A stretch of 32,309 nt of DNA, from NCBI GenBank assembly GCA_013216195.1, contig JABSOQ010000004.1:1-32309 (forward strand). Direction: 5' to 3'. Each line of letters begins with the position of its first letter. Positions within the stretch are counted from its first letter, which is position 1. The notes under the pieces were generated by a model. The model saw only the letters and a program-made list of their open reading frames with translations, was not told the DNA's origin and searched no databases. Position numbers and translations under genes: made by a program. Origin of the DNA: Bdellovibrionales bacterium. GTDB taxonomy: Bacteria; Bdellovibrionota; Bdellovibrionia; Bdellovibrionales; UBA1609. Below, piece by piece: positions 15,610 to 30,677 of this stretch.

Positions 15610-17043
15610 TCAGAGATTCTTAGAGTCGTCAGCCAGGGCTTTCACGTCGATAAAGTACTTTTTGATCTTTCGCAGAAGAGTGTTCTTTGGAATATTAGCC
15701 TGAGCCACAGTTTTATTGATGCGACCTTTGTTAGCTTTAAGAGCCTGAATGATAAACTCTTTTTCAGTTTCTTCTTTGAAGCGATCAAAATCGAGCGGGC
15801 CAGAGTAGTGAGTCGGAAAGTCAATCTCTACATCTTTGCCTTGAGCGTTCTTGATGTTCTCCGGAATACTGGCCGCTGTAATACTGTCGCTTTGTTCTAA
15901 AATGAAAGATCTTTCAATCACGTTTTCAAGCTCGCGAATGTTGCCTGGCCATCTGTAGTTCTTCAAAAGCTCAAGGGCTTCTGAAGAGATGCTGTTCAGG
16001 TTGCGGTTGTGTGTCTTGTTGAATTTCTTTATGAAGTGAACCGTCAAGCCCTGCATGTCTTCAATGCGTTCTCGTAAAGGCGGCATAAAGATCGGCATAA
16101 CATTGAGTCGGTAGAAAAGATCTTCTCGAAACAGCCCTTCTTCAATCATCTTTTCGAGGTTGCGGTTTGTAGCTGCCACGATGCGAGCGTTCGTTTTGAC
16201 TTCGCGGGTGCCCCCAACAGGAACAAAAGTTTTCTCTTGCAAGATTCGAAGTAACTTCACCTGCATGTCTGGTTTTAGCTCAGCAACCTCGTCTAAAAAG
16301 ATTGTTCCTTTAGAAGCCAATTGAAATTTGCCGATTTTTCTTTCGATAGCACCGGTAAAGGCACCTTTCTCGTGACCAAAAAGCTCGCTCTCCATAAGGC
16401 TCTCTGGTATTGCTCCGCAGTTGATTGCTACGAACTCACCATGTTTTCGAGACGAGTTCTCATGGATGGCATTGGCCACAAGTTCTTTACCAGTTCCATT
16501 TTCACCACGGATCAAGACCGTAGTGTCAACTTGAGAAAGGCGATGAATAAGGTCGTACACTTCGTTCATCTTCTGACTAGATCCGACAAATTCAGTTTCA
16601 ACATCTTCATCGAAGATAGGTGTTGATACGGCCAAGCTGTCGACGAGTTCTCTGGCCGCCATTGCCTTTTTGATCATCTCAGAAAGTTTGTCTGGTTGAA
16701 CAGGCTTTTCGACGTAATCGTAAGCTCCAAGCTTGATGGCTTTTACAGCGTCTTCAAGATTAGAATGAGCTGTCATAATCAGAACAAAGGTTTTAGAGCT
16801 ATGGGCTTTGATTTTCTCTAGTGCTTCGAGCCCATCCATTTCAGGCATACGAACATCCATCAGCACTAGGTCGAAGCCTTCACTTTGCACCATGTTTAGG
16901 GCTGATAAACCATTGTCAGCTTCTTGAATTTGAAAATCATATTCAGGCACCGATGAAGTGAGCACCGAAGCTACGGATTTGCGCAGTTCACTCTCGTCAT
17001 CGACAATCAATACCTTCAGCGATTCTTTTATAGAATTGCTCAC
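15610..17043 (-). CDS. NtrC-family sigma-54-dependent response regulator
   Basis: The 477-residue protein has three domains. The receiver (residues ~9-125) has the phospho-acceptor Asp63 in LVLMDVRMPEMDG and the Lys in VEKPV. The AAA+ sigma-54 interaction domain (~152-390) has Walker A GENGTGKE (180-187), GAFTGA (227-232), Walker B IFLDEVAEL and the arginine-finger region LFREDLFYRLNV. A Fis-type helix-turn-helix lies at the C-terminus (ALKANKGRINKTVAQANIPKNTLLRKIKKYF). All residues needed for sigma-54 activation are present. It overlaps the upstream kinase gene by four bases, so that kinase is its obvious partner. Its targets are not known; no convincing sigma-54 promoter was seen near it. 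Confidence 0.93.
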   Translation of the reverse strand: MSNSIKESLKVLIVDDESELRKSVASVLTSSVPEYDFQIQEADNGLSALNMVQSEGFDLVLMDVRMPEMDGLEALEKIKAHSSKTFVLIMTAHSNLEDAVKAIKLGAYDYVEKPVQPDKLSEMIKKAMAARELVDSLAVSTPIFDEDVETEFVGSSQKMNEVYDLIHRLSQVDTTVLIRGENGTGKELVANAIHENSSRKHGEFVAINCGAIPESLMESELFGHEKGAFTGAIERKIGKFQLASKGTIFLDEVAELKPDMQVKLLRILQEKTFVPVGGTREVKTNARIVAATNRNLEKMIEEGLFREDLFYRLNVMPIFMPPLRERIEDMQGLTVHFIKKFNKTHNRNLNSISSEALELLKNYRWPGNIRELENVIERSFILEQSDSITAASIPENIKNAQGKDVEIDFPTHYSGPLDFDRFKEETEKEFIIQALKANKGRINKTVAQANIPKNTLLRKIKKYFIDVKALADDSKNL

Positions 17044-18932
17044 AGACTTCCTCCTAGTGTGGCCTCTTTGGGCTGGGCGATACTCTCATCCATTACAGGC
17101 AAGGTAAACCCAATTTTTGCGCCTTGCCCGAGCTCACTTTCAACGAAGACTCGTCCCCCGTGTAGCTCAATGAAATACTTAACAAGATACAAGCCAATGC
17201 CTGAGCCTTTCTGTTTGGCCTCGTTTGCATTCACTCGGTAAAACTTACTAAAAATCTTCTTCTGGTCGTCACTGCTGACCCCAGGGCCATTGTCTTTCAC
17301 AGAGAAGATCACTTCATCATCAATTTCTTTACTTGAGACCGTTATCTCTCCACCCTCGGGTGTGTACTTGATGGCATTCTCTACGAGGTTGAGAATGACC
17401 TCTTGAATGAGAACGCTATCGAGCTCAACAGAGAACATGGGCTCTAGGTTGCTCTTCAAGTTCTGTGATTTGTCTTTAGCTAGCGGGCGAAGCTGCTCAA
17501 GAACCTTAAAGATGATTTCATTGATGTCTGCTGCATCTTTGCTGATTCTGAAATCTCGAGATTCGACCCTGCTTATTTTCAGAATTGATTGAATGTAGCG
17601 ATTCAGCTCCGTGTTTTCGCGGCGAAGGCTCTTCAGGCCTTCTGAAACTTCAGGGTCAAGCTCTTGCTGGGCCATAAGCCGGTCACAAATTGCCTGAATT
17701 TTGGCAATCGGCGTTTTGAGGTCGTGACTGATCAGAGAGACGAAGTTGTGCTTAAGCTGTTCAACTTCGAAATTGTACTTCTGCTCTTGCTGTAGGCGCC
17801 AGTTGATGTTGTCTTTTTGAGTCAGTTGGTACCCTAGAAACAGTATGTAGGTGAAGCTCATCATCGAAAGGGGTGCTAACAATGGCAGCCAGACATAAAA
17901 AGCATCAAAGATCCAGAGTGAGAGTGCTCCAATTCCTAAGCCAATCCAGATGAGAAGTACAAAAGCCACTGATTGCGGGTAAGAAAAGAGCAGCCACACA
18001 GTGAGAGAAAGCAAGATCAGCAGGTAAAGAATGAGCACGATCGTCGACGGATAATGAAACCACCTTCGGTTTAAGAAGTTGTCGACAATGTTCGCTGTGA
18101 CTTCAGAGCGAGTCATCACTCCAAGGGGGGTGTTGAGAAGGTGAGAGTCGAGGTCTTCTGAGCCAATAATCACGATCTTGTTTTTCAATTCATCGTCTGC
18201 CGCTCCAGACATCACGTCACGTAGGCTGTAAGAATTGAAAGTTCCTCTGCGGCCTCGATAGTTTATTGTCTTCCAGACTCCAGGCATCGGATAGAGGCTG
18301 TCTTCATAGAAGGTCCATGAGTCTGAGAATTGAGCTAGCCGAATTGCCAGATGGGGTACAGAAACATAGGGTTGAGCGAACCTGCGTACTGCTTTGTCGT
18401 TGTCGAAAGAAAAGTCGAGAACGCCGACGTTGCTACCATAATCGAGGGAGAGAGCCGGTAGCACAGGCTGCTTTTGAAGGTTAAGCCTCGAGCCCCACAC
18501 CACATTGGGCCGGTTCAAGGGCTTTTGAATGACATAGCGGCTGCGAGTCTTCTTGAAAAAGAAGGTCACTCCGATAGCTTTAGGTCCTGAAGATTGTATT
18601 TTTTCTAACAGCTGGCTGAGGTGTGGAGGGCTCCAATAGTACTGGTCTCCCACGGGAGTGAACTCTCCCAGGGCCTTCATGTTGCCCGGAGTAACACCAA
18701 TAAAGTCAGCCCACTCTGCCACGCCTAAATTCACAACCACGATGTCATCACCCACTTGCTGCTCGCCTCGTAGATGAAAGCGCCCGTCAAAGCTTTGAAA
18801 ATCCTCAAGAAATAAGATTCCGATACCTAGAAATAGGCAAAGGCCAGCCCTCAGCCACACGCCTTTTGTATCCCACAGGCGTCGGGCCAGTAAGAGTGTG
18901 TAATATCGCAATGTTCGCATTAACTTGGGCAT
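17040..18932 (-). CDS. CHASE2-domain sensor histidine kinase
   Basis: This is a 630-residue membrane sensor kinase. The layout is an N-terminal transmembrane helix (~28-43), a periplasmic CHASE2 domain (~45-290; typical start FDGRFHLRGEQQVGDDIVVV and the end segment DELKNKIVIIGSEDLDSHLLNTPLG), then three transmembrane helices (~297-370), a short coiled coil and the kinase core. H-box His ~403 lies in SLISHDLKTPIAKI; N-box is NLVENAIKYTP, G1 is DNGPGV and G2 is GSGIGLYLVKYF. I chose the ATG at 18932. A TTG at 18935 and an ATG at 18920 are alternatives, and none has a clear ribosome binding site. It lies divergent from ribF with a gap of about 77 bases. The ligand of CHASE2 domains is generally unknown. 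Confidence 0.9.
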   Translation of the reverse strand: MPKLMRTLRYYTLLLARRLWDTKGVWLRAGLCLFLGIGILFLEDFQSFDGRFHLRGEQQVGDDIVVVNLGVAEWADFIGVTPGNMKALGEFTPVGDQYYWSPPHLSQLLEKIQSSGPKAIGVTFFFKKTRSRYVIQKPLNRPNVVWGSRLNLQKQPVLPALSLDYGSNVGVLDFSFDNDKAVRRFAQPYVSVPHLAIRLAQFSDSWTFYEDSLYPMPGVWKTINYRGRRGTFNSYSLRDVMSGAADDELKNKIVIIGSEDLDSHLLNTPLGVMTRSEVTANIVDNFLNRRWFHYPSTIVLILYLLILLSLTVWLLFSYPQSVAFVLLIWIGLGIGALSLWIFDAFYVWLPLLAPLSMMSFTYILFLGYQLTQKDNINWRLQQEQKYNFEVEQLKHNFVSLISHDLKTPIAKIQAICDRLMAQQELDPEVSEGLKSLRRENTELNRYIQSILKISRVESRDFRISKDAADINEIIFKVLEQLRPLAKDKSQNLKSNLEPMFSVELDSVLIQEVILNLVENAIKYTPEGGEITVSSKEIDDEVIFSVKDNGPGVSSDDQKKIFSKFYRVNANEAKQKGSGIGLYLVKYFIELHGGRVFVESELGQGAKIGFTLPVMDESIAQPKEATLGGSL

Positions 18933-18974
18933 CAACGCTGTGTATCAAAAATGGCCTTTGTTTTCAACCTGAGC

Positions 18975-26923: not shown

Positions 26924-28333
26924 ATGAAAGCAAGAATATTAGTAGTTGATGATGAAGAGAGCATACGCGAGTTTCTTGAGATCATGCTCAAGAAAGAGGG
27001 CTATGAAGTCAGTTGCGTAGAAGATGGCCAGAAGGCTTTAGACTTTTTGAAAAAGAAGTCTGTCGACATGGTGATCTCAGATCTTCAAATGCCAAATGTG
27101 ACAGGTATCGAGCTTTTAAAGCAGGTGAAAGATCAGTACCCAGACATGCTCTTTATGATGATCACAGCCTTCGGTACAACTGAAACTGCTGTAGAGGCCA
27201 TGAAGCTTGGCGCTTACGATTACATCACCAAGCCTTTTAAGATTGATGAAGTTCGAATCAACATAGCAAATGCACTTCGCAGTCAGAACTTAGAGGTCGA
27301 GAACCGTACCTTAAAGAAAGAGCTGAAGCAAGAGTACACCTTTCAGAGCTTGGTTGGAAACTCTGAGCCCATGCATCGTATTTTTGAGATGATCAAAAGA
27401 GTGTCTCAAACTCCAACAAACATTCTGGTTACTGGAGAAAGTGGTACCGGTAAAGAGATGATCGCAAAGGCGATTCATTACAACGGGCCATTGAAAGACA
27501 AGCCTTTTGTGACAGTCAACTGCGGAGCTATCCCAGAGTCGCTAATGGAATCTGAGATGTTTGGTCACAAGAAAGGCTCGTTTACCGGTGCCGTGGCAGA
27601 TAAGTCTGGTTTGTTTGAAGTGGCTGATGGTGGCTCACTCTTTTTGGATGAGGTGGGTGAATTACCTGTTACCATTCAGGTAAAGCTTTTAAGAGCCATT
27701 CAAGAGCGTGTGATTAGACGGGTTGGTGGAACTGATGATGTCAAAGTCGATGTTCGAATTATTGCAGCTACAAATCGAAATCTATCAGATATGGTAGACA
27801 AAGGTGATTTTAGACAAGATTTATTCTATCGGTTGAACGTCATCAATATTGAATCACCGCCACTTCGGGATCGAAGAGATGATATCCCTTCATTGGCGAA
27901 TCACTTTTTAAAGAAGTACAACGACAGACTTGCTAAGACTGTAAATGGTATCTCTGAAGAGGCGATGCAGAAGCTTCAAAAGTACGATTACCCAGGAAAC
28001 GTAAGAGAGCTAGAGAATGTTATTGAGCGAACAGTCGCTCTTGAGGGTGGCTCAACGATTCTTCCTGAGAGTTTACCTCCTTTTGTGAATACAGCTCAGG
28101 GCCGCAAGCTTGCTTCAAGCCATGAGATTGAAATTACCGACGAGGGCATTGATCTTGACCGAGTTATTGGTCAGATAGAAAAAGAGCTTCTGGTTAAGGC
28201 GATTCATATGTCAGACGGGGTCAAGAAAAGGGCTGCGAAGTTACTTCAGATCTCGTTTCGATCTATGCGTTATCGTTGCGAAAAGTACTCGTTAGGTTCT
28301 GTGCGAGACGACGAGGGTGATGACGAAGAATAG
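26924..28333 (+). CDS. pilR: Sigma-54-dependent response regulator PilR
   Basis: PilR is the NtrC-type activator paired with PilS. Its receiver has Asp53 in MVISDLQMPN and Lys in ITKPF. The AAA+ domain has Walker A GESGTGKE (171-178), GSFTGA (218-223; the Ser variant of GAFTGA common in PilR proteins), Walker B LFLDEVGEL and LFYRLNVINIESPPLR. The C-terminal Fis-type helix-turn-helix is in KKRAAKLLQISFRSMRYRCEKY. The 469-residue length is normal. pilA itself is not in the window. The nearest sigma-54 promoter candidate lies just downstream at 28494, so this neighbourhood may include a direct target. Confidence 0.94.
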   Translation: MKARILVVDDEESIREFLEIMLKKEGYEVSCVEDGQKALDFLKKKSVDMVISDLQMPNVTGIELLKQVKDQYPDMLFMMITAFGTTETAVEAMKLGAYDYITKPFKIDEVRINIANALRSQNLEVENRTLKKELKQEYTFQSLVGNSEPMHRIFEMIKRVSQTPTNILVTGESGTGKEMIAKAIHYNGPLKDKPFVTVNCGAIPESLMESEMFGHKKGSFTGAVADKSGLFEVADGGSLFLDEVGELPVTIQVKLLRAIQERVIRRVGGTDDVKVDVRIIAATNRNLSDMVDKGDFRQDLFYRLNVINIESPPLRDRRDDIPSLANHFLKKYNDRLAKTVNGISEEAMQKLQKYDYPGNVRELENVIERTVALEGGSTILPESLPPFVNTAQGRKLASSHEIEITDEGIDLDRVIGQIEKELLVKAIHMSDGVKKRAAKLLQISFRSMRYRCEKYSLGSVRDDEGDDEE

Positions 28334-28361
28334 TTGCAACTGTTTCGAAATAAGTTTGTTG

Positions 28362-28388
28362 AGCCTCCAGAGATGGAGGCTTTTTTTT
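28362..28388 (+). terminator. Intrinsic terminator of the pil operon
   Basis: An 8-bp stem AGCCTCCA/TGGAGGCT with a GAGA tetraloop (28362-28381) runs directly into a T tract to 28388. It begins 28 bases after the pilR stop and isolates the following gene from pil transcription. Confidence 0.92.
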
Positions 28389-28422
28389 GTACCCTAGTGC
28401 AGATTCAAATGTTGCCTGTGTA

Positions 28423-28431
28423 GACAGTGTC
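28423..28431. promoter_or_regulatory. Possible activator-binding inverted repeat GACA-G-TGTC
   Basis: A perfect inverted repeat of TGTC lies about 90-100 bases upstream of the predicted sigma-54 transcript start, a normal distance for an enhancer site. TGTC elements are reported in the PilR binding region of the Pseudomonas pilA promoter; assignment here is inference. Confidence 0.35.
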
Positions 28432-28493
28432 ATCGAACTAAACAGACCAAGACGCTGAGGGCTGATCTGTTGGCAGCTGGGCTCACAAAATGC

Positions 28494-28509
28494 TGGCAAT
28501 TTGCTTGCA
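28494..28509 (+). promoter_or_regulatory. Sigma-54 (-24/-12) promoter candidate
   Basis: The sequence TGGCAATTTGCTTGCA has GG and GC exactly 10 bases apart, as sigma-54 RNA polymerase requires, and matches TGGCAC-N5-TTGCW in all but one of the specified bases (A for the last C of TGGCAC). The GC of the -12 box is at 28507-28508, so transcription should start near 28520, about 50 bases upstream of the small exported-protein gene. It lies right after pilR, which encodes a sigma-54 activator. Confidence 0.65.
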
Positions 28510-28568
28510 TTCAGCTGAGCTGGGGATTGGCTTCACTTAAACACTCTATCTAACAAATGGGGGTTCCA

Positions 28569-28763
28569 ATGCGAATTCTAATGGGCATGATTATTACGTT
28601 TGCAATGGCGTCAGCAGTTCAGGCATTTGCCGATTACCACGAAGATGGCAAAAAGCACAAAAAAGAAATGAAAGCAGAAATGACAGAGAACAAAGATGGT
28701 GAAAAAGATAAAGCCATGGCTAAAACAGAAGAGAAGAAAGAAGAGAAAAAGAAAACTGAGTGA
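28569..28763 (+). CDS. Small exported Lys/Glu-rich protein under a sigma-54 promoter
   Basis: The 64-residue product has a signal peptide (MRILMGMIITFAMASAVQA, cleavage near residue 19-21), and the mature part is a strongly charged Lys/Glu/Asp/Met sequence (ADYHEDGKKHKKEMKAEM and onward) that should be disordered or helical. It has no pilin prepilin-peptidase motif. The start at 28569 has GGGGG five bases upstream; an ATG at 28557 has no site. It has its own sigma-54 promoter candidate and a terminator, so it is a single-gene unit. I do not recognise a family. Its position right after pilR is where pilA lies in some related genomes. Export and short length support a periplasmic or surface role; a function in pilus biology is inference. 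Confidence 0.7.
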   Translation: MRILMGMIITFAMASAVQAFADYHEDGKKHKKEMKAEMTENKDGEKDKAMAKTEEKKEEKKKTE

Positions 28764-28840
28764 GGTTTAGTCTTGAGCCTCAGCTGTGATAAACGTGTCA
28801 CAGCCGGGCTTGAAAATGATAGTCAGAATTTGAATCAAAG

Positions 28841-28863
28841 AGAGCCCGAGAGGCTCTTTTTTT
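28841..28863 (+). terminator. Intrinsic terminator after the small exported-protein gene
   Basis: A 6-bp stem AGAGCC/GGCTCT with a CGAGA loop (28841-28857) is followed by TTTTTT. A second hairpin GCTGTGA/TCACAGC (28782-28803) lies between the stop and the terminator and would protect the 3' end of the message. Confidence 0.88.
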
Positions 28864-29006: not shown

Positions 29007-29153
29007 ATGAGTGCCCTTTCTCGGTCCTTAGCTATCGTTATATGGCTGTATTTTGGCTTGTCTTGGAGCTCTGTATCCCAGGCCTCAGAGCCTGCTAGAG
29101 CCTTTGTGAAGGATCCGCTGTGCTTTCACAGTCGAGTCTCGGTGAGGCTCTAG
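29007..29153 (+). CDS. Signal-peptide fragment of the split repeat protein
   Basis: ATG at 29007 has GGAG eleven bases upstream and encodes 48 residues. MSALSRSLAIVIWLYFGLS is a normal n- and h-region, and a cleavage site follows SVSQA. After about residue 38 the frame runs into a stop at 29151-29153, while the downstream frame continues with LSQSSLGEALEGQW. On its own it would be a useless secreted stub, which supports a frameshift. Confidence 0.45.
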   Translation: MSALSRSLAIVIWLYFGLSWSSVSQASEPARAFVKDPLCFHSRVSVRL

Positions 29154-30247
29154 AGGGACAGTGGCTCACATTTAATGCTGAGAGAGCTGACCAGCTTGAG
29201 GCTTTAGCTCTCGCCTCTGATGGCAAAGACTGGGGAGAGACATCCCAGCTAGAATGGGGCAGCTATGAATTGCTCTACGCTAAGAAGTTTTTGTCTGGTT
29301 TTGTTGACGGTCACGAGCAAGAATATTCGCCTGGGAGCATCCGCGTATTTGTGACGAGAGAGGGCGAGCAGGTGAAACCTCGCGTCGCTTTGTTTTACCG
29401 TGATGATGAGCTAGTCGAGATCAGAGGCTTTGCAGAACATCAGCAGCTTGATCTCGAGCTCGCAGCTTCATCTGTCTTGCGGCAAGAGCTAGCGGCAGTG
29501 TTTCCTAAAGATCATTACCTTGTCGAAATGGCCGTAGACGCACAGGCGCTGGTAGTCGTATATCAGCGAACCCTGGCCAAAGAGGAGCTCACTTTGTCTG
29601 AGCTTAGTTTTCTGTATGAAGTTTTCGAACCTATCAAATTGGGTTTTGGCTACCGCAGGTCTGTCGACGAAGATGGCATGCGTGAAATGAAGGTTGAGTT
29701 TTCTGGGCAAAATCTTGATTATCACCAGAACCCAATCCTCGGAGAAGTGCTTGGCCTTCGAGATGTAAAATCTGATCTCTCAAGACTATTTGAAGTCGAG
29801 CCGAGCGAAGTGGCCATTGTTGATTCAGATTCGTCGGCTCAGCAAGTGAGACCTGAGCACAAAGTGGTTTTTGGTGATTACACTATTGAGTCATTAGAGA
29901 CTGATCACATACCGAGCACGATCGTTGGAGATCTTTATGTTAAGGCTGCAGAAGTACGCGATCGCTCTCTCGCAAAATTGGTGACAGGTGATCTCTTTTT
30001 TCGGGAGACTCAAAAAATAAAGGGTGTGGCAATGCCTTTGTCAGTTCGAGGCATTCACTGGAGTGAATCACAGCCTTTGAGTATTGAAAACTCGGTCATG
30101 CCCAATAAGGCGAGAAGACTGAAGTTCAGAGGCAATGTTAAAGTAACAAATGTCACTATGCCGAGTACTCTAGAGGAGCTTTGGGTTGCTGAGGTTCACT
30201 TCCATAGCTTTCTAGATTCTATTCAGAGAGAGGATGAGAATCACTGA
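29120..30247 (+). CDS. Hypothetical repeat protein, main part
   Basis: This 375-residue frame opens with GTG at 29120, which has no ribosome binding site; the true start is probably the signal-peptide frame at 29007. The first ~240 residues are acidic alpha/beta sequence that I do not recognise. From about residue 245 (FGDYTIESLETDHIPSTIVGDLYV) the sequence becomes a solenoid-like array of ~20-residue units with the pattern MP..V.GDL. The array stops abruptly at EDENH and continues in another frame. The nearby minus-strand genes show no obvious functional link. Confidence 0.6.
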   Translation: MLSQSSLGEALEGQWLTFNAERADQLEALALASDGKDWGETSQLEWGSYELLYAKKFLSGFVDGHEQEYSPGSIRVFVTREGEQVKPRVALFYRDDELVEIRGFAEHQQLDLELAASSVLRQELAAVFPKDHYLVEMAVDAQALVVVYQRTLAKEELTLSELSFLYEVFEPIKLGFGYRRSVDEDGMREMKVEFSGQNLDYHQNPILGEVLGLRDVKSDLSRLFEVEPSEVAIVDSDSSAQQVRPEHKVVFGDYTIESLETDHIPSTIVGDLYVKAAEVRDRSLAKLVTGDLFFRETQKIKGVAMPLSVRGIHWSESQPLSIENSVMPNKARRLKFRGNVKVTNVTMPSTLEELWVAEVHFHSFLDSIQREDENH

Positions 30248-30677
30248 AGAGCTTTCGATTCTTGAGACTACACAAGGGCAAAACAGGTCTGGTACTGTAG
30301 AGGGCTCAGTGCTTGAGAATGTTGCGATACCTCAGATTGAGGGAGGCAAATACTCTGTGCATACGACGATATTGAGAAATGTGAATTTTCCAGCTAGGGC
30401 AAAAGAAGTGGTGGCATCGGCTAAAATTATCGAAAGGGTATCCTTCCCTGATCAAGTGGAGGGTGACTTCTTAGTTGAGTTAATGAAGTCAGCTATCACG
30501 GTCGATCAACCCGCTCGAGTTGGTGGAGATGCAGCGCTGGGTACAGTTGCCGTTCATAACTTTTGGCCACTTGCGATCGAAGACACCGAGCCGCTCGGGC
30601 ATGTTGAGGGAGTTTATGAGGGCATCTCTGAGCTGAAGCCCGTGCCTCCCGTTGGTGGTAAATCTGGTTCCAACTAA
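30234..30677 (+). CDS. Hypothetical repeat protein, C-terminal part
   Basis: The 147-residue frame carries further units of the same repeat (VLENVAIPQIEGG, ILRNVNFPARAKEV, IIERVSFPDQVEGDFLV) and ends in a Pro/Gly/Ser-rich tail (PPVGGKSGSN). The purine run GAGAGAGG abuts the ATG, which is too close for a normal ribosome binding site. It is more likely the C-terminus of the preceding frame than an independent gene. The stop is only three bases from the stop of the convergent gene. Confidence 0.55.
   Translation: MRITEELSILETTQGQNRSGTVEGSVLENVAIPQIEGGKYSVHTTILRNVNFPARAKEVVASAKIIERVSFPDQVEGDFLVELMKSAITVDQPARVGGDAALGTVAVHNFWPLAIEDTEPLGHVEGVYEGISELKPVPPVGGKSGSN

Follow-up and report, generated by a model that had tools for sequence, protein, structure and literature searches.

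The gene that directly follows pilR in the DNA analyzed here is best read as a lineage-specific, monocistronic, probably sigma-54-transcribed gene for an exported charged peptide, likely a shortened copy of a gene type (C238 type) that is present intact elsewhere in the same genome, and we hold this reading with moderate confidence. The first-pass annotation had described a complete stand-alone unit consisting of a sigma-54 element, a TGTC inverted repeat at enhancer distance, a small exported Lys/Glu-rich protein, and a terminator, and had suggested that the product may be a PilR-controlled envelope or pilus-associated peptide. The anatomy is confirmed as described, and the interpretation as a whole is partly supported; promoter activity, export, family relationship, and function are what we infer for the unit. 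On its own the unit is a modest addition: a further small exported protein that is specific to its lineage and probably under sigma-54 control.

The window, which is the whole 32,309-nucleotide stretch that was analyzed, is the first part of a 61-kb contig in a 4.1-Mb MAG (G000). PilR is 73–88% identical in most relatives; here it shares 87–88% identity with the PilR of Bdellovibrionia bacterium Co_bin.56, a MAG of the same genus, and 81% with that of Bdellovibrio bacteriovorus, and we therefore judge the source organism to be Bdellovibrionaceae-like. Upstream of pilR lie pilB, pilT, pilC, and pilS, and the resulting order, pilB, pilT, pilC, pilS, pilR, is the one reported for B. bacteriovorus (PMC4237445). 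The pilR product has Pfam matches to Response_reg, Sigma54_activat, AAA_lid, and HTH_8. The features of pilR and the small unit are as follows.

26924–28333, + strand: pilR, NtrC-type response regulator and sigma-54 activator with a GSFTGA motif
28361–28382, + strand: pilR terminator, a 9-pair stem and T-run, separating pilR from the small unit
28417–28431, no strand assigned: TGTGTAGACAGTGTC, proposed enhancer with a GACA-G-TGTC inverted repeat; present as sequence, not supported as a specific site
28494–28509, + strand: sigma-54-type -24/-12 element TGGCAATTTGCTTGCA, predicted transcription start near 28520
28559–28563, + strand: Shine-Dalgarno-like GGGGG, 5 bases upstream of the ATG at 28569
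28569–28763, + strand: small ORF of 64 codons, from the ATG at 28569 to the TGA end at 28763
28837–28861, + strand: intrinsic terminator of the small unit, a 10-pair stem and T-run

When the coordinates were re-read, the GG-N10-GC element was found with GG at 28495–96 and GC at 28507–08 and exactly 10 bases between them (TGGCA-N6-TTGCA), in intergenic DNA about 75 nt upstream of the ORF start. Because there are terminators on both sides, the small unit stands alone, as had been proposed. A RyhB match over the pilR terminator is below threshold (20 bits vs 55) and was taken as chance rather than as a structured RNA. Beyond the unit, at 29008–30677, a signal-peptide ORF (∼29008–29153) and the ORFs 29120–30247 and 30234–30677 overlap in different frames; these are perhaps one exported-protein gene with two frameshifts, which may reflect decay or assembly error.

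The small ORF has the codon use of a gene. Its codon score is 36.3, compared with 17.2 ± 7.5 for 64-codon coding chunks and -2.9 ± 5.4 off frame, so that it resembles the neighboring genes and not shifted frames, with a value partly inflated by Lys/Glu codons. The product carries a predicted signal peptide with cleavage after AFA, leaving a mature part of 43 residues (DYHEDGKK...KKTE) that contains 14 Lys and 14 Asp+Glu for a net charge of 0; these features and the Shine-Dalgarno-like sequence bear out the 64-residue exported charged protein that had been noted. The protein is modeled as a single helix with modest confidence. It was also correctly said not to be a pilin: the type IV pilin motif recognized by prepilin peptidase, GF(S/T)LIE, is absent from the 64 residues, which likewise have no Pfam match. 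Neither Pfam nor NCBIfam contains a family matching this protein or the paralogue described below, and PDB profile matches, at E 0.03 or worse, were taken as coiled-coil noise.

That paralogue lies in the same genome (G000:C238:13594-13932) and is found at E 0.003, a homology based on ∼55 low-complexity residues. The word FADYHE, which spans the cleavage site, is identical in the two proteins, and among 2000 shuffled versions of the mature part only 1 aligns with as high a score. In the prediction for the C238 paralogue, the signal peptide is followed by a helix, a turn with the Cys pair at its flanks, and a second, basic helix, and its structure prediction is a two-helix hairpin (pLDDT 80, pTM 0.48). 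Relatives of it are scattered through the order (best E 9e-11), in G058, G051, G036, G039, G045, G046, and G002, and the Cys are conserved among intact family members. The small protein is probably a shortened, diverged relative of this patchy Bdellovibrionota family, to judge from the alignment; we do not assign it full membership because it lacks the family's diagnostic Cys-pair segment.

A -24/-12 promoter class is truly in use in this genome, where our genome-wide statements are based on pattern searches and on fetched stretches. The window element TGGCAATTTGCTTGCA agrees with 10 of 11 consensus positions at exact spacing and is the sole window match with fewer than two mismatches to TGGCAY-N5-TTGCW. 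Site counts alone were dropped as proof: there are 40 occurrences of TGGCA-N6-TTGCW and 202 for all spacings from N4 to N8 together, so the correct spacing is no commoner than the others, and for this reason we used context. Intergenic positions with an ORF start 20–250 nt downstream are held by 16/29 correctly spaced sites vs 1/25 mis-spaced ones. Among sites ending in TTGCW, 16 of the 18 with TGGCAC/T are promoter-like but only 4 of the 22 with TGGCAA/G, the window site being one of the 4; for the window's own variant, TGGCAA, the count is 2 of 12. The genes downstream of -24/-12 sites mostly encode exported proteins, lipoproteins, or flagellar proteins, including a FlgF/FlgG-like gene, and all 30 of the 30 TGGCAY-N5-TTGCW sites examined in three relatives (G002, G008, G026) are intergenic. 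Across this genome and the three relatives, the -24/-12 promoter class thus goes with genes for exported proteins and lipoproteins and with flagellar genes. Since TGGCAA/G sites are rarely promoter-like, we put the probability that TGGCAATTTGCTTGCA is a working sigma-54 promoter above even and no higher. What stands of the proposal that the unit is sigma-54-driven is a plausible promoter of a class that the genome uses; the TGGCAA sub-type adds little to it.

Conservation of the unit after pilR was rejected. None of the 76 named pilR loci with enough sequence shows, in the 500 nt that follow pilR, either a sigma-54 site (threshold, at least 9/11) or a small ORF rich in K/E, and the sister species, whose PilR is 87% identical, has a different gene there, which goes against the expectation of a conserved ORF in relatives that keep pilSR. 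Nor does the position prove to be one where pilA is to be expected, with a pilin within 500 nt in only 6 of the 76 loci. Among the relatives' genomes listed, the gene after pilR varies, and being so variable it makes a place beside pilR poor evidence for PilR control in this group. The small protein has no convincing match in two same-genus genomes or in the other 56 relatives searched, and a contig scan of 84,980 species genomes, which reaches close relatives only, found no relative; at the sensitivity used, the small ORF is unique to the MAG studied.

The proposed enhancer fared no better. The inverted repeat GACAGTGTC is indeed present at 28423–28431, within TGTGTAGACAGTGTC, but its enhancer role is not borne out by TGTGTAGACA, the 10-mer around it, which occurs 8 times in 4.1 Mb vs 12 times for the reversed control and so shows no enrichment. 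Upstream of the 21 promoter-like sites, TAGACA ranks first among non-repetitive hexamers (9 vs 1.7 expected), a weak excess that is not significant after correction for ∼2,000 hexamers, and the hexamer is not enriched in G002, G008, or G026. Neither word is supported as a common enhancer, being either not significant or not replicated in the three relatives. This genome's pilA-like gene (C231) has no recognizable sigma-54 site upstream. An activator search found many NtrC-type activator genes in the genome; in the window, 15610–18935 holds a second such gene besides pilR together with the CHASE2 histidine kinase gene that precedes it, oriented opposite to the pil genes, and its product, too, could be the activator of nearby sigma-54 promoters.

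These results bear on several other explanations. The -24/-12 match may be a chance word, with transcription from some other promoter that we do not recognize (housekeeping or other sigma factor); the scarcity of promoter-like TGGCAA/G sites and the frequency of wrongly spaced words speak for this, but the element has the right position and orientation, would leave a leader of ∼50 nt, and occupies a place where a promoter scan found no sigma-70-like site, in a gap before the ORF that contains no FliA-type CCGATA. We consider this account possible but doubtful. A lower probability still goes to the idea that the ORF is a decaying fragment, a degenerate, nonfunctional C238-type duplicate that has lost its Cys-pair half. 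That the Cys segment and basic tail typical of the family are gone, that the ORF is absent from two same-genus genomes, and that the next downstream gene looks frameshifted are all in keeping with decay; the open frame, intact ribosome site, signal peptide, coding-like codon use, and clean terminators on either side are not, and we regard it as unlikely.

The remaining explanation is the one offered at the outset, in which binding of PilR to the TGTC-type repeat would switch on the sigma-54 promoter of a gene for an envelope or pilus-associated peptide. Genes for EBPs often lie beside their targets. In Geobacter, PilR drives an RpoN-dependent pilA just downstream of pilR (PMC2725144), and GACA/TGTC tetramers exceed expectation upstream of the sigma-54-like sites of the present genome (50 vs 30 expected). 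Against this, no examined relative that retains pilSR has the unit, no enhancer is common to it and the sigma-54 promoters of relatives or this genome's own pilA-like gene, and a palindrome that precedes pilA in two relatives with pilA after pilR has no significant match at the small unit (best 11/16, P ∼0.16). Adjacency is the sole evidence, PilR being only a neighbor of the small unit, and we find PilR control or a pilus role quite improbable. The narrower form of this explanation, in which a recently acquired, PilR-activated sigma-54 gene supplies an exported polyampholyte peptide that acts at the envelope or pilus in this lineage related to predators, is very improbable; if true, it would be a use of PilSR not described before.

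We thus return to the lineage-specific gene for an exported peptide. In it, sigma-54 RNA polymerase with some activator would probably transcribe from 28494–28509, producing a leader of ∼50 nt, and the signal peptide suggests that the small protein is exported by the general secretion route. The mature product would be a net-neutral chain of 43 residues, rich in Lys and Glu and either helical or disordered, that resides in the periplasm or extracellularly. Its origin would most likely be a shortened, diverged copy of a C238-type gene, with the intact paralogue remaining elsewhere in the genome, and its most likely function would be that of a soluble charged helix in the envelope, for example, as a binding or chaperone-like helper.

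The palindrome just mentioned, TGTCTCA-N3-TGAGACA (17 bp), first drew attention ahead of several sigma-54-type promoters. The genome has 33 places that match TGTYTCATNATGARACA with ≤2 mismatches; at 3 mismatches, with each site counted on both strands, there are 292 rows vs 130 for the reversed control. Of the copies examined, 25/27 are intergenic, many of them ahead of exported proteins and FxNC lipoproteins (examples in this genome are L302:1501-1517, L304:1501-1517, L316:1501-1517, and L335:1497-1513), and two or three copies of related sequences precede pilA in two relatives with pilA after pilR (L268, L269). The FliA-type word CCGATA, which is known in B. bacteriovorus from promoters of the attack phase (PMC3627812), lies within 100 nt downstream of the palindrome 9 times vs 0.8 expected. 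A role as a pure PilR/sigma-54 enhancer, suspected at first, is weakened by these observations, as the majority of copies lack a sigma-54 site and several stand ahead of CCGATA; the palindrome is possibly the binding site (operator) for a regulator that controls surface or attack-phase genes. It is absent from the small unit of the window, and we judge it more interesting than that unit and deserving of its own study.

Two further recurrences concern sigma-54-type promoters elsewhere. Such promoters recur ahead of lipoproteins with an F(Q/N)NC lipobox, at L035 and L121 in this genome and at L195 and L213 in G002; in one case, L121 (seen again in L102), a pilin-like gene with the same orientation comes next. 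The word CCTGTCAAAAT stands 75–140 nt upstream of sigma-54-type sites at L182 (G000), L206 (G026), and L220 (G008), and also at L115, L210, and L219. It is exact and accompanies short membrane-protein genes that look alike in three genera, and is thus a candidate activator site, perhaps flagellar.

Compared with RpoN promoters of the GG-N10-GC type, the window site has no replicated enhancer and carries A rather than C/T after TGGCA, a sub-type that lies mostly inside genes here, whereas its exact spacing, its TGGCA and TTGCA halves, and its intergenic position ∼75 nt before an ORF are those of the class. The pilR-pilA arrangement of Geobacter and some Bdellovibrionota differs in that the window product is not a pilin and the unit is absent in relatives; in common with it, the window gene follows pilR immediately and has a promoter and a terminator to itself. 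Relative to the C238-type family, the small protein is half as long and is without the Cys-pair turn and the basic second helix, but it has in common with that family a signal peptide, a DYHE-like mature start, and a Lys/Glu-rich helix.
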